DNA from: Anaerolineales bacterium
GTDB lineage: Bacteria; Chloroflexota; Anaerolineae; Anaerolineales; Villigracilaceae
Assembly (NCBI GenBank): GCA_013140605.1
Contig: JABFSL010000015.1
Location: 1 to 46,213 of the forward strand
Length of the DNA: 46,213 nt
Direction: 5' to 3'
The position numbers and the translations under genes were made by a program. Positions 5,003-45,383 of this stretch are shown here, piece after piece; the first letter of the stretch is position 1, and each line of letters starts with the position of its first letter. The notes beneath the pieces are model-generated. The model worked only from the letters and a program-made list of their open reading frames with translations. It had not been told where the DNA came from and searched no databases.

Positions 5003-6397
5003 TTACGGAAAATATTTATCAAGTAATTGGCTGGCAAATAAACCATCGGAACCATTCAAATCTGCATCGCGCACAAAAGTCAATTCATTGAATGCGGCCG
5101 CGCGATCATCCTGCGCGAGATATGTCATCGCAAGATGAATATGTGCGGGCAAATGATCTGGAAAGCGCTTCGTCACATCAAACAAAATTATCGCGGCATT
5201 GGCATACCTTCCAGAAGCGAGGAAAGTCCAGCCCAACGTATCCAACGCAAAGGGATCGTCAGGCGCAAGCTCCACCGCCTTCTGCGCGGCGGGCAAACCA
5301 ATATCTTCCACATGAACATTGTTATCGGCACAAAAGACCGCCAACAATCGCCAATAAGTTGAGTCGGTTGGCGCAATATCTGTGGCCTGTTGATAAGCTA
5401 TCAGCGCAGCGGAAATATCACCGCGTTTGAAATATGCATTCCCGATTTCCGCCGGCCATGCGGGGTTGGTCGGATCGTATTCCGCGGCCAATAAATATTC
5501 AGCCAGCATTTGCGAATATTTTTGCTGACGATTCCAATATAGCCCGCGCAACGCCCGAACGGTGATGGATGTGTGATCGAGAGTCAATGCCCGATCAAGC
5601 TCCACGCTTCCATCCTGGCCCGTCTGCTGTTTCGCTTCGCCGAGCCAGGCCCATGCCTCGGCATTTTCAGCGTTAAGCGTAATGGCTTTCTCAAATGCCG
5701 CAATGGATAGATCCCATTCCTGAACCAAACCCAATGCGCGGCCAATCGTCACAAACTGTGCGGAGGGCTCGGGTTGTGCGGCGGAAATGTTCAAAGCGGA
5801 GCGCAATGTCTGCACAGCAGAATCAGTTTGAGGGTCCAGAGAAGAAGCGAGCATTAATTCAGTAAGAGCCTGCTCGGGCTCAAGAAAAGATAACAAGAGG
5901 CCGAGTCTGTAATGGGCGTAGACACCCCCCGCGTCCAGACGAACTTGATTCTTCAATGCGTCCATTTCAGCAGACCAATTTTTTTGTTGGCGATACATAT
6001 AAGCAAGCCCCGCATATAAAGAAGGAGAATCAAAAGATCGCAATCCTTGTTGATATGCATTAAGCGCGGATGGAATATCGCCTGATGAAAAATGGGAATA
6101 CGCCAGCATCAACCAACCTTGTTCAGAAAGTTGAGGAGCACGCTTTAAGAAAATGATCGCGCGGGATGTGTCTCCGCCATTACCCGCGGCAATGCCCGCC
6201 TGCTCCCATAGATCATCGCGCCAGGGTAATAAACGCGCGGCTCGCGAAAACGAATCAGCCGCGGCTGCGTATTTTTGCGCGGCGAGTTCATCCTCTCCAT
6301 GTTTGATGGAGGAATAGCCAATGTAGATTAGCGGCAAAAAAATCGCCGCGAGCAGGGTCGTTAGTATTATCGGAACAAGCCATTTGTTATTGTGCAT
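5003..6397 (-). CDS. Membrane-anchored TPR-repeat protein
   Basis: The chosen ATG at 6397 gives 464 residues (MHNNKWLVPII...) with an N-terminal membrane helix at about residues 5-27. A longer frame upstream adds a non-conserved segment that would overlap the divergent gene. The rest is TPR units of about 34 residues, with repeated patterns such as 'AAADSFSRAARLLP', 'AIAAFEKAITLNAENAEAWAWLGEA' and 'ALIAYQQATDIAPTDSTYWRLLA'. It probably displays a protein-interaction surface outside or along the membrane. It is divergent from the histidine-kinase-like gene, and both appear to have promoters in the same short interval. Confidence 0.75.
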   Translation of the reverse strand: MHNNKWLVPIILTTLLAAIFLPLIYIGYSSIKHGEDELAAQKYAAAADSFSRAARLLPWRDDLWEQAGIAAGNGGDTSRAIIFLKRAPQLSEQGWLMLAYSHFSSGDIPSALNAYQQGLRSFDSPSLYAGLAYMYRQQKNWSAEMDALKNQVRLDAGGVYAHYRLGLLLSFLEPEQALTELMLASSLDPQTDSAVQTLRSALNISAAQPEPSAQFVTIGRALGLVQEWDLSIAAFEKAITLNAENAEAWAWLGEAKQQTGQDGSVELDRALTLDHTSITVRALRGLYWNRQQKYSQMLAEYLLAAEYDPTNPAWPAEIGNAYFKRGDISAALIAYQQATDIAPTDSTYWRLLAVFCADNNVHVEDIGLPAAQKAVELAPDDPFALDTLGWTFLASGRYANAAIILFDVTKRFPDHLPAHIHLAMTYLAQDDRAAAFNELTFVRDADLNGSDGLFASQLLDKYFP

Positions 6398-36665: not shown

Positions 36666-37541
36666 ATGAACCTATGGCAAGCATATAAACGGCCCGCTTC
36701 CGTCACGGAAGCAATTCAAGCTCTTACAACTGCATCTGGTACTGTCATGCCCATCGCGGGCGGAACCGATCTATTGCTCGACTTGAAACAAGGCCGCCAC
36801 GCCCCCGTCCACACATTAATTGATTTGACCTTTGTCCCAGAGATGTCCCTGCTCGAATTGAGAGGGGATGAACTCTACATCGGAGCCGCCGTCCCGGTCA
36901 ATCGCGTCGCACTTGACCCGCTAACTGGTACGCACGCCCAGGCATTGGTCGAAGCCTGTAACTTGATCGCAGGCCCGCAAGTCCGCAACACAGCCACGCT
37001 CGGCGGCAACGTCGCCCACGCCCTCCCCGCCGCAGACGGCACCATCGCCCTGACTGCTCTCGAAGCGCAGGCTGAAGTTGCCAGCCCTACCGGGACTCGC
37101 CGTGTACCGTTCACTTCCCTCTTCCTCGGCCCAGGTAAATCTGCGCTCAATAAAAACGAAGAAATCATCGTTGGCTTCTACTTACCACTTACCACTTACC
37201 ACCAGGCTTCCTGCTTCAAACGCATTATGCGTCCGCAGGGTGTGGCTTTGCCTATCTTGAATTGTGCTGTCTGGCTTGAACGCGATGGGGATATTGTCAA
37301 AGACATTCACATCGCAGTTGGCCCCGGCAGTTCAATTCCCTTCCGCGCCACCGAAGCAGAATCTACTTTGTGCGGACAATCAGTAAACAGCGACGCCCTA
37401 AATCGCACCATGGAATCTCTTCTTGGTCAGGCTCATTTCCGCACCAGCGCCCGCCGCGCCAGCGCAGACTACCGCAGGCATATTATCGGCGGATTATTTA
37501 GTGATACTTTTGAAACTGCGTGGTCAAGAGCATTTAAATAA
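36666..37541 (+). CDS. xdhB: FAD-binding subunit of a xanthine dehydrogenase-type molybdenum hydroxylase
   Basis: The ATG at 36666 (after GGAAGGA) gives 291 residues beginning 'MNLWQAYKRPASVTEAIQAL', the usual family start; a longer in-frame extension is not family-like. FAD-site motifs are 'MPIAGGTDLLLDLKQG', 'IGAAVPVNRVALDPL' and 'GPQVRNTATLGGNVAHALPAADG'. The C-terminal CO-dehydrogenase-flavoprotein domain has 'CFKRIMRPQGVALPILNCAVWL'. It passes electrons from the Mo and Fe-S centres via FAD to NAD or another acceptor. Its partner is the fused subunit at 38,734, but a lipoprotein gene is wedged between them, overlapping this stop by one base. Confidence 0.93.
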   Translation: MNLWQAYKRPASVTEAIQALTTASGTVMPIAGGTDLLLDLKQGRHAPVHTLIDLTFVPEMSLLELRGDELYIGAAVPVNRVALDPLTGTHAQALVEACNLIAGPQVRNTATLGGNVAHALPAADGTIALTALEAQAEVASPTGTRRVPFTSLFLGPGKSALNKNEEIIVGFYLPLTTYHQASCFKRIMRPQGVALPILNCAVWLERDGDIVKDIHIAVGPGSSIPFRATEAESTLCGQSVNSDALNRTMESLLGQAHFRTSARRASADYRRHIIGGLFSDTFETAWSRAFK

Positions 37542-38719
37542 TGAGAACCAAACACCCTCGATTTTCTCTATTGCTTCTTATTGGAATAACATTTTCATTT
37601 CTATCCGCTTGTGGTCCGCCCGGATATAATTTTATTGTAGTGAAAAAAATCAGCGTAAGCAAAAACATTGTTTATGTTCGCGCCTCACAAGACTGTAACA
37701 ATTGTCAAACTATTGAGGGTTTTGTCTATTATGCCAGCCATGATAATGGTCAAACTTGGGAGGAAGTCACATCACCGACAAATGAGGTATTACAGATATT
37801 AAAGCAAAAACAGAATAAACAATCTCCTGTTTGTATTTTGGTTGAAACGAAAGTTTGTTACAGAATAACTTACAAAGAACAGGTTGAAATCTCTAATGAT
37901 GGTGGTGTTACCTGGCAAAGCGATTGGCAAATCCCTGCTGGTCGTAAAGACTATATGCAAATGCTTTTTGTCGGTCCTGGTCCAACCATTATTCCATTTG
38001 ATATACAAGTAACCGAATCTGCTATTGGGCATTTTGTTGTTGTTGCAATGGGAAATCAGGGTGTGCTTGTCAAATCGCCAGATGGGAATTGGAATAGGTA
38101 CGCTGTTGGATTGGCAGTACCAACTCCCTATCAAGCGGCGAATTTCCGGGAGGCGACGGATGTGTTGTCTTCAGAGCTTTATTCAACAATCCTAATAGCG
38201 TTCTGTAGTTTTCTGTTATTATCCTTCTGGGCTTGGGTCACGATTTATATAAAATCAGACAAAATGCTTCGCAAAAAAATTCTGACATCTTGTTTGGTGT
38301 TTCTTTTTTCCATAGTAATTTTGCCATCTTATTATATTTTTCTCTCTTCATCTCCAAATATAGGGTGGCTTGAAAGTCTACATTATTACATAATCTCGCA
38401 CTTTCGTTATATTATCGCCGGTGCGCGAATTATTATCAATATTCTACCGTTTATAAGCTTTTGGGTTACATGGTTGATGGTTATTCGCATTTCATTAAAC
38501 AAGGATTTAGGCTTATTGACTCTGCTTTTGAGTGTAGTTTTTTCTGTTATCTTATATTTTTGTATATTGTTGCCATTTCAACTTTGGGCGTTGGGGACAA
38601 TTTCAGTTTATGAAACGGCCCTCGTGATTTCATGGCTCGTTGGAATTATTGTTGTACTAATCGCATTAATAAGTGAATTCCGAATTGCCGTTTTGGCAAT
38701 AAGACCTATTAGCAAATAA
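37541..38719 (+). CDS. Lipoprotein/membrane protein of unknown function, inserted between hydroxylase genes
   Basis: This 392-residue protein starts by TAATG overlap with the FAD-subunit gene. It has a lipoprotein-like signal ('ITFSFLSACGPPG') and an extracytoplasmic domain with BNR/Asp-box-like 'YYASHDNGQTWEEVTSP' and 'EISNDGGVTWQSDW'. About five membrane segments follow from residue 205 on, including 'TILIAFCSFLLLSFWAWVTIY' and 'ILTSCLVFLFSIVILPSYYIF'. Its base composition is clearly more AT-rich than both neighbours, suggesting recent acquisition. No link to molybdenum hydroxylases is known to me. Confidence 0.7.
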   Translation: MRTKHPRFSLLLLIGITFSFLSACGPPGYNFIVVKKISVSKNIVYVRASQDCNNCQTIEGFVYYASHDNGQTWEEVTSPTNEVLQILKQKQNKQSPVCILVETKVCYRITYKEQVEISNDGGVTWQSDWQIPAGRKDYMQMLFVGPGPTIIPFDIQVTESAIGHFVVVAMGNQGVLVKSPDGNWNRYAVGLAVPTPYQAANFREATDVLSSELYSTILIAFCSFLLLSFWAWVTIYIKSDKMLRKKILTSCLVFLFSIVILPSYYIFLSSSPNIGWLESLHYYIISHFRYIIAGARIIINILPFISFWVTWLMVIRISLNKDLGLLTLLLSVVFSVILYFCILLPFQLWALGTISVYETALVISWLVGIIVVLIALISEFRIAVLAIRPISK

Positions 38720-38733
38720 GAAGGTAATTAACT

Positions 38734-41532
38734 ATGAACAATCAGATCTCATTTACAGTTAACGGCACCAAACATACCATTGACCCCGTTGCGGGCGAGA
38801 CTTTATCCACCCTCCTCCGCGAGCGGCTGCGGCTTACCGGCACCAAGATCGGCTGTGAAGAAGCCGAGTGCGGAGCATGCACCGTCCTTGTGGATGGCGA
38901 GCCGATGATGTCTTGTGTTTATCCTGCCGAGCGCTCGGATGGCAAGACCATCGTTACGATTGAAGGACTCGCACAGCGCGTTCACGAAGAGATGAAACTG
39001 CACCCGTTACAGGAAGCCTTTATTGAACAGGGCGCAGTCCAATGCGGATTCTGCATCCCCGGCCAGATCATGACCGCGTATGCTCTGCTCAAGCGCAACC
39101 CAAATCCAGACAGCGCGGATATTCGCTTTGCACTCAAAGATACGCTTTGCCGCTGTGCAGGCTATCCATCCATTGAAAATTCCATTATCGCCGCAGCCGA
39201 AGCCCTGCGGACTGGCGAAGCCGTTCAGAAGCCAACTCATATTCCCGATTCAATTCATAATCACAAGACAGTCGGTCACAGTCACTTGCGCCCGGAAGCT
39301 GTGGAAAAAGTAACTGGCGAAGCCATTTATACCGATGACTTGAAATTCGACGGTATGTTGTATGCCAAAGCCCGTCGTGCGATGATCCCGCACGGATTTT
39401 TAACGAAACTTGATGTCTCCAAAGCAAAAGCTCTCCCCGGTGTAGTCGCGGTTCTAACCGCCGAAGATATTCCCGGTGAACACAATCATGGACTAGTCAT
39501 TTACGACTGGCCGGTAATGGTTGGTATTGGCGAGCGTATCCGCTATGTGGGCGACGCTCTTGCCATCGTTGCAGCCGAAACTCAGGATATCGCCGAACAG
39601 GCGTCCGCGTTGATCGAAGCGGAATTTAACCTCCAGCCTGTCATCACGAATCCAGTTCAGGCGCGTGAAGAGGGCGTCCAGCAAATCCACGAAAAAGGCA
39701 ATTTGCTCAAGCACATCAAAGTCCGCAAGGGTGACATGGATGCGGGCTTTGCGAAAGCTGATCTCGTTTTTGAGCACACTTTCCACACCCCGACCACTGA
39801 CCACGCCTTCATCGAACCTGAATGCAGCATCGGCGTGCCACTGCCCGATGGCCGCATGGAAGTTTATGTTGGCTCACAAATTCCGTATCAGGATAAGACT
39901 CAAGTTGCGCGCGCGTTGGGTTGGGACGAGTCGCGTGTCCGTATTGTGGGTCAGCTCATGGGCGGCGGCTTCGGCGGCAAGGAAGACATTATGGGACAGA
40001 TCCATGTTGCCCTGCTTGCGAACGTAACTCAGCGCCCGGTGAAACTGCTCTTTGATCGCCATGAAAGTTTGCTTGTACATCCCAAGCGCCATGCCACGCA
40101 GATCCGCGTTAAGATGGGCGCGATGAAAAATGGCCGTCTCGTTGCAGTGGATACCGAACTGTACGGCGACACCGGCGCGTATGCGTCACTCGGCGAAAAG
40201 GTGATGACCCGCGCCACCACGCACGCAGCAGGTCCCTATGATGTCGAGAATGTCCGCGCTGATTGCTATGCCATGTACACTAATAATCCGCCCGCGGGCG
40301 CGTTCCGTGGTTTTGGCGTAACGCAATCTGCGTTTGCGGTTGAGTCGATGATGGACATGCTCGCTGAAAAATTAAATATTGAACGTGTTGAGCTGCGCCG
40401 CATGAACGCGCTTCACGTTGGAAGCATCACCAACACAGGACAGGAATTGAAAGAGTCGGTTGGCTTGCTGGAATGTATCAACCGCGTGGATGCGGAGATG
40501 CGCAAGCACAACCCGTATCCCTTCACGCCGATAGTTGATTCTGCCAATTCGAATTTGATTCGCGCCTGGGGTTTTGCCTCGGCCTACAAGAACACAGGAC
40601 TCGGCGGCGGCGCTCCTGATAAATCTGGCGCGGATGTGGAACTCTACGAAGACGGTACATTCCAAGTCCGTAGTTCTGCGGCTGAACTCGGTCAGGGACT
40701 TGTGACCGTCATGCGTTTGATCGTTTCCGAAGAAATGGCAGTCGCTCCTGAAAAAGTGCGCGTGCTCGTCATGGACACCGACCTGACTCCCAACGGCGGA
40801 CCAACGACTGCTTCCCGCCAGACCTTCGTCACAGGCAATGCCTCACGATATGCCGCAAAGACTCTGCGCGATGAGATCACTGCTTCGATGGCTGAAAAAT
40901 ACGATGTCCGCCCCGAACAGATTCGCTTCGCGGATGGTATTGTCCATGTCAACGGGCATTCGATGACCTACGCTGAAATTTACAAAGAAATGAAAGCGGC
41001 TGGAAAAAATCCGCTTGTGCGCTACATGTATGAAGCGCCCAAGACCAAACCACTCGGTGAGGGCGGCGACATGCATTTTGCCTTCTCATTCGGCGTGCAG
41101 GCTGCCGAAGTTGAAGTCAACAAGTTGACGGGCGAAGTGCGCGTTCTGAAAGTCATCTCAGCCAATGATGTGGGCATGGCGGTCAATCCGCTCGGCTTGC
41201 AGGGACAGATCGAGGGCGGCGTGATGATGGGACTCGGCAACTGTCTCACCGAAGAATTCATCGTCGAGAACGGCAACGTGGTCACAGACCATCTCGCCCG
41301 TTATCGCGTGCCAGGCATCATGCTCACACCAGAGATCACCTCCATCGTCGTTGAACATCCCATTGAAGCAGGTCCGTACGGCGCGAAGGGTGTTGGCGAG
41401 GTGTGCAGTATCCCGACTACGCCCGCCATCACGAACGCCATCTACAACGCTGTCGGCGTGCGGATCGATAAGACGCCTGTGGATCAGGAGTTGATTGCGA
41501 ATGAGTTGTGGGAGAGGGAAAATAAGAATTAA
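38734..41532 (+). CDS. xdhD: Fused 2Fe-2S and molybdopterin subunit of a xanthine dehydrogenase-type hydroxylase (XdhD layout)
   Basis: This 932-residue protein starts with a 2Fe-2S ferredoxin domain (C41, C46, C49, C61) and the second 2Fe-2S helical domain (C104, C107, C139, C141). Two molybdopterin-binding domains run from about residue 185 to the end, with 'GGGFGGKED' (410-418), 'GAFRGFG' around R525, 'ELGQGLVTVM', 'TTASRQTF' and the catalytic Glu E889 in 'GAKGVGEV'. The fusion and length match E. coli XdhD (956 residues), which lies in the E. coli purine cluster. It should hydroxylate a purine, probably hypoxanthine or xanthine; a nicotinate-type substrate cannot be excluded. A bidirectional terminator follows, and its 3' end is duplicated at 42,278. 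Confidence 0.92.
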   Translation: MNNQISFTVNGTKHTIDPVAGETLSTLLRERLRLTGTKIGCEEAECGACTVLVDGEPMMSCVYPAERSDGKTIVTIEGLAQRVHEEMKLHPLQEAFIEQGAVQCGFCIPGQIMTAYALLKRNPNPDSADIRFALKDTLCRCAGYPSIENSIIAAAEALRTGEAVQKPTHIPDSIHNHKTVGHSHLRPEAVEKVTGEAIYTDDLKFDGMLYAKARRAMIPHGFLTKLDVSKAKALPGVVAVLTAEDIPGEHNHGLVIYDWPVMVGIGERIRYVGDALAIVAAETQDIAEQASALIEAEFNLQPVITNPVQAREEGVQQIHEKGNLLKHIKVRKGDMDAGFAKADLVFEHTFHTPTTDHAFIEPECSIGVPLPDGRMEVYVGSQIPYQDKTQVARALGWDESRVRIVGQLMGGGFGGKEDIMGQIHVALLANVTQRPVKLLFDRHESLLVHPKRHATQIRVKMGAMKNGRLVAVDTELYGDTGAYASLGEKVMTRATTHAAGPYDVENVRADCYAMYTNNPPAGAFRGFGVTQSAFAVESMMDMLAEKLNIERVELRRMNALHVGSITNTGQELKESVGLLECINRVDAEMRKHNPYPFTPIVDSANSNLIRAWGFASAYKNTGLGGGAPDKSGADVELYEDGTFQVRSSAAELGQGLVTVMRLIVSEEMAVAPEKVRVLVMDTDLTPNGGPTTASRQTFVTGNASRYAAKTLRDEITASMAEKYDVRPEQIRFADGIVHVNGHSMTYAEIYKEMKAAGKNPLVRYMYEAPKTKPLGEGGDMHFAFSFGVQAAEVEVNKLTGEVRVLKVISANDVGMAVNPLGLQGQIEGGVMMGLGNCLTEEFIVENGNVVTDHLARYRVPGIMLTPEITSIVVEHPIEAGPYGAKGVGEVCSIPTTPAITNAIYNAVGVRIDKTPVDQELIANELWERENKN

Positions 41533-41555
41533 TAAGTAACGGGTAAAAAGTAAGA

Positions 41556-41600
41556 ACCAAAAAGGACTCTCGGATTTCAAGTCTGAGAGTCCTTTTTGGT
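41556..41600. terminator. Bidirectional terminator between the hydroxylase and DUF2442 genes
   Basis: ACCAAAAAGGACTCTC (41556-41571) pairs perfectly with GAGAGTCCTTTTTGGT (41585-41600). A/T tracts on both sides serve the converging genes. The GGACTCTC...GAGAGTCC core recurs at 42395-42430. Confidence 0.9.
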
Positions 41601-41603
41601 TTG

Positions 41604-41945
41604 CTACTTTATTGCAGCACGCACTTTTGGGAGTTTCTTTTTCTGAACAGCCGCCACAACTAAATTCTTCTTTTTCCCATGAGTTGTCTTGCTCTGCGAT
41701 GAAGCTGCTTTTACAGCCTTGCTTTCAAGATAAAGCGTGTCATAACTCAAGTCAATTTCACCTTGCCATTCCACTGAGCCAGATATCACACGCGCGGTTT
41801 TGAAAAGGGCGGCATTTTTCAAACGCGCAAATACAGGTTTATTGAAATATGGACTCAAGTCAAAGGTACGTTTTTCACCGTTTTCAAATGTCAATAACAG
41901 GCAGTAGTCATTCCTAAACTGGATGGATTTTACATAAGGATTCAT
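41604..41945 (-). CDS. DUF2442 domain protein
   Basis: This 113-residue protein opens 'MNPYVKSIQFRNDYCLLLTFENGEKRTFDLSPYF' and has 'ISGSVEWQGEIDLSYDTLYLESK', the DUF2442 pattern, with a Lys-rich C-terminal tail. GGAG precedes the ATG. It lies 8 bp downstream of a DUF4160 gene on the same strand, a common pairing that resembles two-gene toxin-antitoxin-style modules, though activity has not been shown to my knowledge. The strand is opposite to all neighbouring island genes. Confidence 0.88.
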   Translation of the reverse strand: MNPYVKSIQFRNDYCLLLTFENGEKRTFDLSPYFNKPVFARLKNAALFKTARVISGSVEWQGEIDLSYDTLYLESKAVKAASSQSKTTHGKKKNLVVAAVQKKKLPKVRAAIK

Positions 41946-41953
41946 TTGTACTC

Positions 41954-42223
41954 CTATTTCAAGGGGTCAATCTTGAAAACTTCTTCTCCGTTTACCGCCA
42001 ACTTCCAATCAGCGTTCAATTCTTCGCGGCGGATTTCAATCCATGCTTGCACAAGGCGGGTTTTGTTGTTGGGAAATTTTCCTACAAGTAATTTTCCGTC
42101 TGCAATGCTGAAAACGGCCTTATCTCCTCCATACTCTACATGAATGTGAGGGACATGGTGTTGTTTATTGTCTGTGTAATACATGCGGACGATAATGCCG
42201 TAAAACATGGATAGGATTGGCAT
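41954..42223 (-). CDS. DUF4160 domain protein
   Basis: The ATG at 42223 is chosen because GGAGAGGAGAAA precedes it. The 89-residue product 'MPILSMFYGIIVRMYY', with 'HHVPHIHVEYGGDKAVFSI' and 'LVQAWIEIRREELNADW', is a typical DUF4160 protein. It forms an operon with the DUF2442 gene. The two genes sit between the intact hydroxylase 3' end and a duplicate of it, so they appear to mark an insertion. Confidence 0.88.
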   Translation of the reverse strand: MPILSMFYGIIVRMYYTDNKQHHVPHIHVEYGGDKAVFSIADGKLLVGKFPNNKTRLVQAWIEIRREELNADWKLAVNGEEVFKIDPLK

Positions 42224-42277
42224 GTTATTTCTCCTCTCCAAATTATATCCCGACTTTTGGCGGGATAAACAAATCAC

Positions 42278-42379
42278 ATTCCGAGTGCTGTCTATAACGC
42301 AGTCGGCGTGAGGGTTGACAGGACGCCTGTGGATCAGGAGTTGACTGCGAATGAGTTGTGGGAGAGGGAAGAGAGGTAA
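42278..42379 (+). pseudogene. Duplicated 3' end of the hydroxylase Mo-subunit gene
   Basis: Positions 42291-42370 match 41441-41520 at 72 of 80 bases, and weaker similarity extends left to 42278. The frame is kept and reads YNAVGVRVDRTPVDQEL, then a slightly different tail and TAA. Most changes are conservative, so the copy was probably once under selection as the end of a second Mo-subunit gene, or it was duplicated with the inserted module. Confidence 0.85.
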
Positions 42380-42394
42380 CCAGTAATTAGTAAA

Positions 42395-42430
42395 ACAGGA
42401 CTCTCAAGCCTTTCAGATTGAGAGTCCTGT
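42395..42430. terminator. Duplicate of the hydroxylase terminator hairpin
   Basis: ACAGGACTCTCAA (42395-42407) pairs perfectly with TTGAGAGTCCTGT (42418-42430). It shares the GGACTCTC core with 41556-41600 but lacks a long T tract. Confidence 0.7.
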
Positions 42431-42469
42431 GATATAAAAGGGCGTAAGATAAATTATCCGGGAGTGGAC

Positions 42470-44026
42470 ATGAAAAAGAAAAATTACTTCAACATTATTG
42501 TTTTGATCGTTACAATTCTTTTATATGCGTGTGGCAAAGCGCCTGCGGCGACAGATGTACTGTCAACGCCATCATCAACGACAACACTTATGCCTTTTCC
42601 CACTTTTGCGCCTATCTCCACTTTGCCTGGCGGTGTTACTCCTACATATCCACCATACTATTCTCCTACGCCTACAGACACGGCGACACCCACCTCCACA
42701 CCAGATTACGCTGCGCTTGGAATTCCTTCTCCAACTCCAACGCCGACGTTTGATTATGACGGACTGGCATCTTATTATTTGACGCCATTTACGCCTATTC
42801 CCACAATGACTGGTTTTGCGCCTCAAATACCCACAGTAAATGTGAAAGATTTGTTGCCTAATGTTGAGATACGTAAAGCGACTCCCCAATTTCCACCTGT
42901 TAGTGAGGTGGGGAGTTCTGCCAATCAAGATAATTCTGAATGGTTGCTCACTTATATCCAAAGCGCAACAGATTTGATTAATTATGTGGATGGAAACCAA
43001 GAACTTTATCTTCAATATGTCGAAGACTGGCAGCCAATCGCATTTAAATATTCGCCTGATGATTGGTTCATAGAAAAGGATTTCGATGATGATGGGCAAG
43101 TTGAATGGCTTGCAAGTATTCCCGTTCGATTTGAAGATGACGGAATAAATCGTTGTGGATTTGAGTTTAGCCATTTTGGATATTGCCCTCGCTTTTTCTT
43201 TATTTTCGAGAAAATTGATAGTTCGTATTACCCAAAGCAGGCTTGGGGTCCAATCCCAACCAGTTGGAATGTTGCAGAAAGCAGGGTAGCACTTATAGAT
43301 GATCTTAACAATGATGGCATACAAGAAATGGTTTTCAGGGCGGACCCGTGCGGCGCTGCCGTTTGTAGTACATATTTGTCTGTTGGGCGATGGAACGGAC
43401 AAATATGGGAATGGATTGGTCATATCGTCAATGACTATGCCGAAGTTACATTTGCCGATCTTGATGGCAATGGAACCATCGAGATTACGGTTGCTTACCC
43501 AACCTATGCCGCCAGCCGATACAACTCTCCTTATTCAGGACGAGATGTTGTAGATATTTATGGGTGGAAGAATAATCGGTACGAACTCGTAGATCAAATA
43601 TACCCGCCTACCGGAAGCGTTTTTGAAACCATCTTCGATATTTCCAGTGCGCTTGAATATAAAAACGCCGAACTGGCGTTTAGACGCATAAATCCCGTCA
43701 TTGAAACTCTCGACCAATCCTGTGACCGAATGAAAACCTACGTAGGCATTCAAGCCATGCTGGCGCATGCGCTTCAAGGAGATGCAAACGGGATGAAGTC
43801 CACATTGGCGAAACTGGAAAAATATTGCGACTTTCCCCGCAACGCTTACCTGCCTGCTGCAAAAATTTTATGGCTGGCGTATGAGAAATCCCGTGATCCC
43901 ATCGGCGCATGTCAGGCAATGGAGCGTTTTTTGTGGAAGGAATACACGCGGGAAAATGGTCGGTGGGAGGAAACCTTTTTTATTGAGTGGCGTTCTACGA
44001 ACAGACCTTCTTGTCCGCAAGAATAG
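42470..44026 (+). CDS. Lipoprotein with integrin-like FG-GAP/VCBS-type repeats
   Basis: The ATG at 42470 (GGAG 5 bp upstream) is preferred over a GTG that overlaps the ribosome site, giving 518 residues. A lipobox 'ILLYACGK' is followed by a long Thr/Pro linker to about residue 100. The mature domain has Asp-rich 'KDFDDDGQVEWLASIPV', 'LIDDLNNDGIQEMVFRADP' and 'FADLDGNGTIEITVAYP', which resemble calcium-binding FG-GAP/VCBS units. A helical C-terminal part follows. It is probably secreted and surface-bound. The composition is somewhat AT-rich compared with the purine genes. The function is unknown. Confidence 0.75.
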   Translation: MKKKNYFNIIVLIVTILLYACGKAPAATDVLSTPSSTTTLMPFPTFAPISTLPGGVTPTYPPYYSPTPTDTATPTSTPDYAALGIPSPTPTPTFDYDGLASYYLTPFTPIPTMTGFAPQIPTVNVKDLLPNVEIRKATPQFPPVSEVGSSANQDNSEWLLTYIQSATDLINYVDGNQELYLQYVEDWQPIAFKYSPDDWFIEKDFDDDGQVEWLASIPVRFEDDGINRCGFEFSHFGYCPRFFFIFEKIDSSYYPKQAWGPIPTSWNVAESRVALIDDLNNDGIQEMVFRADPCGAAVCSTYLSVGRWNGQIWEWIGHIVNDYAEVTFADLDGNGTIEITVAYPTYAASRYNSPYSGRDVVDIYGWKNNRYELVDQIYPPTGSVFETIFDISSALEYKNAELAFRRINPVIETLDQSCDRMKTYVGIQAMLAHALQGDANGMKSTLAKLEKYCDFPRNAYLPAAKILWLAYEKSRDPIGACQAMERFLWKEYTRENGRWEETFFIEWRSTNRPSCPQE

Positions 44027-44114: not shown

Positions 44115-45383
44115 ATGAACAAATTCACTGGCTATCGCTGTTCACTTTGTGGGACCGAATACCTGCCGGGTCAGGTCACTTATACCTGCCCGAAGGATGG
44201 CGGCAACCTCGATGTCATCCCTGATTATGAATTCATCAAGAAGAAATTCCAGCCCGAAGACATTACTTCGCGGACTGAGTCTTCGCTTTGGAGATATCTG
44301 CCTCTCCTGCCTGTGGATGAACCTGAGGGTGACTCCACTCCCCTGCACGCCGCAGGCTGGACGCCGGTGTTTGCTCTGCCGCGATTGGCAGAAAAACTCA
44401 ACCTCAAGCATCTCTGGCTAAAAGACGAGTCACGCAACCCCACAGCTTCATTCAAAGACCGCGCCAGCGCAATCGTTGTCACACGTGCGCGTGAGATCAA
44501 AGCAGAAGTGGTTGTGACAGCATCCACAGGCAACGCGGGCGCGGCGCTGGCAGGCATGTCTGCTGCGGTGGGACAGAAGGCTGTCATCTTTGCGCCCAAG
44601 TCTGCTCCGCAGGCCAAGGTGGCGCAACTGCTCGTCTTTGGCGCGAAAGTCATTTTAGTGGACGGAACATATGACGACGCATTCGACTTGAGCATCAAAG
44701 CATCCAATGAATTTGGATGGTATTGCCGCAACACTGGCTACAATCCATTTACGCTGGAAGGCAAGAAGACTGCCGCGTTTGAAATTTGGGAATGGTGGCT
44801 GGAAGCGCACCGCGAGTGGCATCAAAAAGATAAACAACTTGATGATCATGCACCTCTCACGATCTTTGTTTCAGTGGGAGATGGAAATATTATTTCCGGT
44901 GTGCATAAAGGATTTAAGGATTTATTTGCATTGGGCTGGCTCCCCAACATGCCGCGTATCATCGGCGTGCAGGCGGAAGGTTCTGCGGCAATTGCAAACG
45001 CGTTTAACGCGAACACAGAAATCATCACGCCTGTCTCTGCCACAACAATCGCGGACAGTATTTCAGTTGACCTGCCGCGAGACGGTGTCCGCGCGGTGCG
45101 CGCGGCGAAGGAAACTGGCGGGACGTATATCACGGTATCCGATGATGAGATCGTCAAGTCCATCGCGGAACTTGGCAAAATGGGAGTCTTCCCCGAACCT
45201 GCCGGGGCGACATCCTATGCCGGTCTGGTCAAAGCAGCAGGCCTGGGCGTAGTTCGAGGCGATGATCCTGTCCTCGTATTGAATACCGGCAGCGGACTCA
45301 AAGATGTCCGCGCGGCGATGCAGGCTGTCCAGTCTGCTCCGATCATTGAACCAACCCTGGAAGCGGTCAAAAAGATTTTATGA
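44115..45383 (+). CDS. thrC: Threonine synthase-like PLP enzyme
   Basis: This 422-residue fold-type II PLP enzyme has an N-terminal zinc-ribbon-like segment ('YRCSLCGTEYL...YTCPKDGG', Cys pairs). The PLP lysine lies in 'NPTASFKDRAS', the phosphate loop in 'TASTGNAGAALAG', and the conserved end is 'VLNTGSGLKD'. Threonine synthase makes threonine from O-phosphohomoserine. The symbol is provisional: the purine cluster elsewhere uses YgeX, a different fold-type II PLP lyase, and this enzyme lies close to the island, but its sequence favours threonine synthase. Its stop overlaps the next start (ATGA). Confidence 0.8.
   Translation: MNKFTGYRCSLCGTEYLPGQVTYTCPKDGGNLDVIPDYEFIKKKFQPEDITSRTESSLWRYLPLLPVDEPEGDSTPLHAAGWTPVFALPRLAEKLNLKHLWLKDESRNPTASFKDRASAIVVTRAREIKAEVVVTASTGNAGAALAGMSAAVGQKAVIFAPKSAPQAKVAQLLVFGAKVILVDGTYDDAFDLSIKASNEFGWYCRNTGYNPFTLEGKKTAAFEIWEWWLEAHREWHQKDKQLDDHAPLTIFVSVGDGNIISGVHKGFKDLFALGWLPNMPRIIGVQAEGSAAIANAFNANTEIITPVSATTIADSISVDLPRDGVRAVRAAKETGGTYITVSDDEIVKSIAELGKMGVFPEPAGATSYAGLVKAAGLGVVRGDDPVLVLNTGSGLKDVRAAMQAVQSAPIIEPTLEAVKKIL

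Follow-up and report, generated by a model that had tools for sequence, protein, structure and literature searches.

A DhiTA-type toxin–antitoxin operon between two copies of a hydroxylase gene end, and its probable insertion with long target duplication

The contig JABFSL010000015.1 of an Anaerolineales bacterium (assembly GCA_013140605.1; Chloroflexota, Villigracilaceae), analysed here over 46,213 nucleotides and called the window, carries a small toxin–antitoxin (TA) gene pair that lies between two copies of the end of its neighbouring gene. This neighbour (38734-41532, plus strand) is a full-length open reading frame (ORF) for a fused [2Fe-2S]/molybdenum-subunit hydroxylase, which we call coxSL, and a profile search of the window ORFs places it in the xanthine-dehydrogenase superfamily; we regard it as the target of an insertion. 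A 94-nt segment of its 3' end (41427-41520, plus strand) recurs as a direct repeat with 85% identity at 42277-42370 on the same strand, such that the second copy lies 850 bp downstream of the first. A preliminary description of this DNA had reported that 80 bp recur here at 90% identity with frame and stop intact, and this core (41441-41520 and 42291-42370; E 9e-28 in a search within the locus) is borne out, the longer repeat being an extension of it. The reading frame of the right copy runs on to a stop codon at 42377-42379 (the frame ends ..YNAVGVRVDRTPVDQELTANELWEREER before the stop), yet this copy is part of no listed ORF of at least 50 aa.

Each copy is followed by a hairpin. The left, terminator-like hairpin (41555-41601, no strand assigned; -35 kcal/mol) marks the 3' boundary of the minus-strand gene pair, and resident downstream DNA begins after the right one (42395-42430, likewise without strand; -22.5 kcal/mol). 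Both share a GGACTCTC stem, in agreement with the common core described earlier, and for each of them equal stability was reached in 0 of 200 shuffles. Local alignment reveals that the repeat spans the coxSL end plus the hairpin (118 of 155 columns identical), with the left copy in this gapped alignment extending from -88 to +64 as counted from the last sense codon of coxSL. No inverted repeat joins the ends of the insert except the two palindromic hairpins, which pair mutually. The pattern GGACTCTC-N3to25-GAGAGTCC has no further match in the whole 3.93 Mb genome to which the window belongs (G000; other G numbers denote genomes and L numbers the loci compared), and the exact pattern occurs in 21 of 57 same-genus genomes with 1-2 forward-strand copies apiece. 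The idea that the hairpin is a dispersed repeat or an attachment (att) site was rejected, given that it is confined to this locus in G000.

Only two genes lie between the copies, both on the minus strand, and Pfam matches above cut-off verify the identities proposed in the preliminary description: a DUF2442 gene (41604-41945; 113 aa; PF10387, 53.8 bits) and a DUF4160 gene (41954-42223; 89 aa; PF13711, 82.6 bits). A TATAAT sequence near the insert edge (42242-42247, minus strand), noted by eye, is a possible -10 box of the pair. Two plus-strand ORFs of 63 and 65 aa overlap these genes. No recombinase or transposase was found in the insert, whose minus-strand ORFs match DUF2442 and DUF4160 only and whose 63- and 65-aa plus-strand ORFs were left unscanned, and none of its ORFs is of the size of a recombinase. 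PADLOC returned no match for either protein. Judged from its domains, the pair is of the DhiTA type, a type II TA family, with DUF4160 as the predicted DhiT-type toxin and DUF2442 as the predicted DhiA-type antitoxin. The namesake system, dhiTA of Dickeya dadantii, is a DUF4160/DUF2442 pair that was shown to be functional as a type II TA system (PMC8198452; here and below, statements on cited articles refer to the portions of each that were available). Both systems have the same domains and the same order, with the toxin gene upstream and the antitoxin gene second. They differ in that both window proteins fall below the NCBIfam equivalog cut-offs, the DUF4160 protein just below (88 bits against 100 for DhiT) and the DUF2442 protein far below (27 bits against 200 for DhiA). 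The main text of PMC8198452 uses neither ‘direct repeat’ nor ‘flank’.

The preliminary description offered two readings of this arrangement, namely that the module had arrived together with a copy of the gene end and so preserved the resident gene, or that it had taken the place of most of another hydroxylase gene in tandem. It proposed to look for relatives with an empty site, with a full second hydroxylase gene, or with the same module beside another duplicated gene end. The C-terminal part of coxSL has one match each in 38 of the 57 same-genus genomes (E 1e-120 or better), a count that is limited by some contigs ending close to the site, and no full second hydroxylase gene was found among these 38. 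Empty sites do exist: in 11 of the 38 genomes, a PALP-family gene that is the right-hand resident neighbour (44115-45383, plus strand, in the window) starts 93-136 bp behind coxSL, usually with one hairpin in between. In G016, for example, the DNA after the sole hairpin leads directly to the PALP gene. The coxSL–PALP distance is 817-5666 bp in 16 further genomes, and the PALP gene was not found on the fetched stretch in the other 11.

Several unrelated gene pairs occupy this site. A copy of the coxSL end lies beyond a TA-like pair in four of the 38 genomes (G000, G008, G036 and G064), which between them carry three different pairs. G008 shares both its DhiTA pair and its coxSL-end copy with the window, and the DNA beyond them proceeds straight to the PALP gene. 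In G036, a DUF2281 gene and a PIN-like gene (named from its resemblance to that of G001) come first. They are followed by a copy of the coxSL end, identical over its first 44 nt, and then by a hairpin, another small pair on the minus strand recognised by eye, and a further hairpin. G064 carries a DUF433/DUF5615 pair and then a coxSL-end copy with 82 of 84 nt identical, and the PALP gene is absent from its stretch. In G064 the duplicated segment starts at almost the codon at which it starts in the window, which may reflect either a preferred breakpoint or chance. Hairpins accompany other pairs at this site: a BrnT pair lies between two hairpin copies in G019, another BrnT pair is located behind the hairpin in G080, and two pairs (DUF2281 with a weak PIN match, and MazE-like with ParE-like) are distributed among three copies of the hairpin plus downstream DNA in G001. 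None of the other filled sites showed a repeat of the coxSL end; some contain short repeats (21-38 nt in G002, G009 and G073) that stem from the hairpin region downstream.

Two of these pairs may include a damaged gene, as judged by eye. The PIN-like gene of G036 (L050, 6250-6670) seems to be interrupted by a stop, with no full ORF, and the coxSL-end repeat next to it is nearly identical. In G008, the first seven codons of the DUF4160 gene are followed by an in-frame stop (L035, ~6070-6100; window homologue 42200-42223), and the ORF found for it is 76 aa long, so that in G008 the toxin of this shared insertion may be dead or shortened, in contrast to the open copy of the window.

The repeated DNA belongs to the target and not to the cargo. 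We looked closely at the duplicated part in 23 cases of TA pairs bracketed by direct repeats, some of which have no assignable target. In many of them a long ORF has its 3' end repeated (for example at L075, L079, L091, L093, L110, L119 and L243), including genes for a pyrroline-5-carboxylate reductase (L079), an R3H-domain AAA protein (L091 and L093), a peptidase C69 (L110) and a cation ATPase (L119). At other loci it is the 5' end plus upstream DNA, as for a diacylglycerol kinase (L069), an ABC ATPase (L102), L252 and L261, and at L090 and L120 it is a hairpin alone. At L069 in G036, the DhiTA pair is 79.8% identical to that of the window over 668 nt and is flanked by an 89-nt duplicate of the diacylglycerol-kinase start, not by coxSL. 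To describe the module as having brought along a copy of the gene end is thus less apt than to say that the duplicate is made from the target.

Comparisons among loci agree with this assignment. L075 and L079 have a common 602-nt module (79%) beside different gene ends, and the homology stops within 1-5 nt of the edges of the L075 insert; in L079 it stops 20 and 37 nt inside the insert. Among the 34 bracketed TA loci, repeat sequence is common only to loci with the same target (L064/L070, L091/L093 and L065/L088/L101), except for 14 nt in one pair. For the R3H gene (protein end ..HVRIFRE), which is present in 50 of the 57 genomes, 30 loci were fetched; 28 of these are empty, with a single gene end and a downstream stretch free of BrnT genes, and the loci in G026 and G033 carry BrnTA between two gene ends. 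DUF4160 or BrnT pairs also reside inside repeated ends of one gene, TIR-like as judged by eye, at L065, L088 and L101, where the repeats are long and multiple.

Long direct repeats are more frequent around the TA pairs tested than around control genes or random positions. We called a locus bracketed if a direct repeat of at least 25 nt, at least 75% identity and E of at most 1e-3 had one copy per side within ~1.5 kb, and a strict rule called for 30 nt, 80% and a spacing of up to 1300. The loci tested were the best-scoring ones among the matches listed, and contig ends depress the TA counts. Brackets were found at 10 of 30 DUF4160 loci of the genus (the window and G008 among them) and at 14 of 30 BrnT loci, versus none of 30 NUDIX and two of 30 glyoxalase control loci. 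Random positions were bracketed in 18 of 600 cases in 1.2 Mb of G026 and in 18 of 381 near coxSL loci. Under the strict rule, the TA count of 20/60 compares with 2/60 for the control families (Fisher p 2.5e-5), 6/600 for random positions in G026 (p 9e-18) and 6/381 for the coxSL neighbourhood. BrnT loci from other genera of the order are bracketed as well (10 of 25, eight of them strictly).

The dimensions of the brackets point to a unit of about one operon. Repeat length ranges from 25 to 299 nt (median 71.5) over the 34 bracketed TA loci, and the tightest bracket encloses 527-1856 bp (median 720), with 29 of the 34 at 1000 bp or less. In 18 of 19 clean, hand-picked cases the enclosed DNA holds a same-strand ORF pair. 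The margin past the stop codon is at most 21 nt in nine of 18 cases and reaches 247 nt, and the upstream margin is 14-150 nt. It is from these sizes and margins that we conclude that the unit approximates a single operon.

G000 and G008 differ equally in coxSL (86.6% identical in coding DNA) and in the DUF4160 gene (85.8%), which is what one old shared insertion that predates their split would predict. A coxSL tree of 37 of the 38 genomes joins G000 to G016, whose site is empty (support 89), and G008 to G073, whose insert is a different one (support 99); the seven-member group around them also takes in G002, G069 and G080. A transfer of DhiTA between G000 and G008 is disfavoured, as its divergence matches that of coxSL, and the DhiT gene tree does not separate loss from transfer. 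A separate observation concerns a DhiTA locus between SDR-like and Lon-like genes (by eye; L267 and L268, also L061 and L062) that is 94-96% identical between G006 and G002, with identical DhiT coding DNA at L267 and L268. This likeness may be due to a recent transfer or to a misplaced contig.

Taken together, these data make us confident that a single DhiTA-type addiction operon was inserted at the 3' end of coxSL and that the target was duplicated in the process. The structure of the locus, the empty sites, the other pairs at the same site, the other targets, the derivation of the repeat from the target and the operon-sized inserts are all observed. Insertion with preservation of the resident gene is accordingly the surviving half of the original proposal, upheld by the 11 empty sites, by the other pairs with coxSL-end copies of their own (G036 and G064) and by the other target genes. 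The integration strategy suggested for a small two-gene module is, moreover, not confined to DUF4160/DUF2442, since it extends to BrnTA, DUF2281–PIN-like and DUF433–DUF5615 pairs.

How might such a product arise? The incoming operon would comprise 620 bp of coding DNA plus ~60 bp of flank, and the duplicated target would reach from ~90 nt before the coxSL stop through the terminator. The left copy would complete the resident coxSL gene, and the right copy would be a remnant that restores the downstream side. We infer that two nicks might be made some tens to ~170 bp apart, the operon joined in and the gaps filled, whereby the stretch between the nicks would be doubled. We rate the chance that the target was opened over tens to ~170 bp in this manner as only slightly short of even. 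Replication that switches template into the operon and then back to an upstream point would yield the same product, and we view this route as rather unlikely, if far from negligible. Ku-dependent end joining is an unlikely mechanism, because Ku was found in only one of the 57 genomes, as a partial match at a contig edge, and in none of the 32 best genomes. Once inserted, the operon would keep its place by post-segregational killing, and recombination between the repeats could remove it cleanly. That the killing of cells losing addiction genes favours gene maintenance has been argued before (PMC3874152, PMC3031569).

At one junction, a short inverted copy was seen by eye. At the left junction of L110 (near 1280-1310), the duplicated segment gives way to a 9-nt inverted copy of its own end (AACCAGAAG..CTTCTGGTT), as would be expected of a fold-back template switch; L110 is the sole such case, and other junctions were not examined for one.

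A number of observations weigh against this account. No enzyme or intermediate for the insertion was seen, and no repeat was detected at 36 of the 60 genus TA loci. Brackets are wide or weak at L098, L104, L116 and L076 (inserts of 1190-1856 bp), some loci represent the same site and so do not count independently (L064 with L070, and L091 with L093), and the glyoxalase controls were bracketed twice. Only three of 22 DUF4160 loci not labelled Chloroflexi are bracketed, two of them strictly. One of the three, L276 from bacterium isolate Yes70-08, has 109-nt repeats (95%) ending in GTTAGGC that we take to resemble integron attC sites, such that the same toxin family may there be part of an integron cassette. 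The two window copies have diverged to 85%, leaving the original length of the duplication uncertain. The topology of the coxSL tree requires at least three losses of the shared insertion, or one transfer; losses by recombination between the repeats would be clean. Finally, some brackets enclose cargo of a different kind. In 1.2 Mb of G026, where 30 repeat pairs were listed and many of these lie within one ORF or belong to paralogues or multi-copy sequences, several locus-unique pairs bracket non-TA ORFs beside gene ends (for example, ORFs of 519 aa and 131 aa), and therefore the process may not be TA-specific.

This last observation leads to the competing explanation that we take most seriously, although we place it somewhat below an even chance: long target duplication could accompany the capture of any small gene, and TA pairs would be over-represented by survivorship, as cells that lose them through repeat recombination are poisoned. 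The locus-unique repeats in G026 that overlap gene ends around non-TA cargo speak for general capture. Random fragments, however, would not be expected to give TA brackets that are mostly about one operon wide, and the non-TA control families yielded very few brackets (0/30 and 2/30), though these genes are perhaps not recent arrivals. Long target duplication may be a general route of gene gain here, with TA pairs enriched or better kept, and the present data do not separate a TA-specific process from general gene gain. An improbable alternative is homologous integration, in which DNA of a related strain with a coxSL end and a TA pair entered by one crossover in coxSL, the incoming DNA being circular or else its second junction illegitimate. 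A circle or a one-sided integration yields the same repeat structure, and a circle model has been proposed for transposed genes in Arabidopsis (PMC2869330), but such events would leave unexplained both the first arrival beside coxSL and the presence of the same family beside other genes with the ends of those genes. The equal divergence of coxSL and the toxin gene between G000 and G008 also favours vertical descent.

The remaining two explanations seem to us very improbable. Deletion of the greater part of a tandem hydroxylase copy, with the module in its place, as entertained in the preliminary description, would account for the frame and stop of the right copy. This idea finds no support in the single coxSL match in each of the 38 genomes, even with some contigs ending nearby, and it is at odds with the variety of TA-like pairs at the coxSL site, whose repeat ends differ, and with sites elsewhere at which the duplicate is a gene start or a hairpin alone. 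Furthermore, the recent insertion in G064 has a near-identical partial copy and no trace of a remaining second gene. The other is a site-specific cassette, either of an integron or of an element with a gene-end integrase, whose att site would be the coxSL end or the hairpin. Copies of the hairpin or coxSL end do accompany several different pairs at this site, and TA genes are often found on integrons (PMC3874152). Against a cassette stand the lack of a recombinase-sized ORF in the insert, repeats of unrelated targets that vary from 25 to 299 nt and have no common sequence beyond one 14-nt match, and the absence of the exact hairpin pattern from the remaining genome.

Having weighed these, we return to insertion of an addiction operon with target duplication, for which precedents exist. 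Some restriction–modification (R–M) systems insert with long, variable target duplications of ~100 bp (PMC3874152, citing Furuta 2010 and Nobusato 2000), and insertion with long target duplication is also described in PMC3031569 and, for H. pylori R–M genes, in PMC1643837. The resemblance to the present case includes a small addiction operon, variable direct repeats of ~100 bp (94 nt ungapped in the window), relatives whose empty site holds one repeat copy (11/38 for coxSL and 28/30 for R3H), and an insert without a recognised transposase or recombinase. In contrast to R–M insertion, the cargo here consists of several type II TA-like families (DUF2442/DUF4160, BrnT, DUF2281–PIN-like, MazE-like/ParE-like and DUF433/DUF5615), the hosts are Anaerolineales and their relatives, the window insert has no recognised DNA endonuclease, and several unrelated pairs have made use of a single site (coxSL–PALP). 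No report of TA pairs with long target duplications was recognised in the literature searched, which comprised mostly titles and few subscription journals, and the available portions of PMC4615327 and PMC2654758 hold nothing on long duplications around TA pairs. The best reading is that insertion with long target duplication, in print for R–M systems, applies here to single TA operons.

Other mobile systems offer weaker parallels. Transposed genes of Arabidopsis are single genes with long flanking direct repeats that are often present at the orthologous target, but these belong to a eukaryote and are not linked there with addiction modules (PMC2869330). Integron cassettes are similar in that small TA pairs are serial passengers of one hot spot, and dissimilar in that the insert has no integrase and no common att site and that the duplicates are target DNA (coxSL coding sequence plus hairpin); these statements concern the insert, and a genome-wide search for an integron integrase was not made. 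A DNA transposon would differ in having terminal inverted repeats, of which there are none here beyond the hairpins, and the duplication length in our cases varies.

Additional DNA near the locus is best treated separately from the insertion. A gene for a 520-aa FG-GAP-like lipoprotein (42464-44026) lies between the right hairpin and the PALP gene in the window and is missing in G008. Because G008, with the same DhiTA pair, runs from the right hairpin to PALP directly, we place this gene outside the insertion. On the other side of coxSL, a 392-aa ORF (37541-38716) separates it from the gene for the FAD subunit, and among relatives this gap varies from a few bases to ~950 bp, so this junction also gains DNA. 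Neither the lipoprotein gene nor the 392-aa ORF qualifies as a further duplicating insertion, as no ungapped direct repeat of at least 16 nt brackets them. In G026, at 382-388 kb (L151-L210 joined), a five-copy repeat of ~65-100 nt separates several small genes that include a pair named HigBA-like by eye, and this could possibly represent serial insertions with the same target copy.

It has long been asked how chromosomal TA pairs come to occupy new sites when no mobile element carries them. The pattern described here, which recurs at many other genes in related bacteria, hints at how such pairs spread without a transposon. BrnT proteins form a ribonuclease family. In R–M systems the restriction enzyme could be blamed for cutting the target, and the same pattern around BrnT pairs speaks for a process in which the cargo need not cut DNA. 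We tentatively propose, with less than even confidence, that addiction operons of both the TA and the R–M kind may move as naked one-operon units through an undescribed duplicating insertion that opens the target over 30-170 bp, needs no transposase, integrase, Ku or cargo endonuclease, and leaves the genes next to the target intact. For genome annotation, a warning follows: gene-end fragments beside TA pairs can be scars of insertion instead of remains of tandem copies. The present group of genomes, in which about two dozen TA loci are bracketed, sites are also found empty and target copies differ in age, makes the unit that moves, the rules of target choice and the rate of loss measurable.

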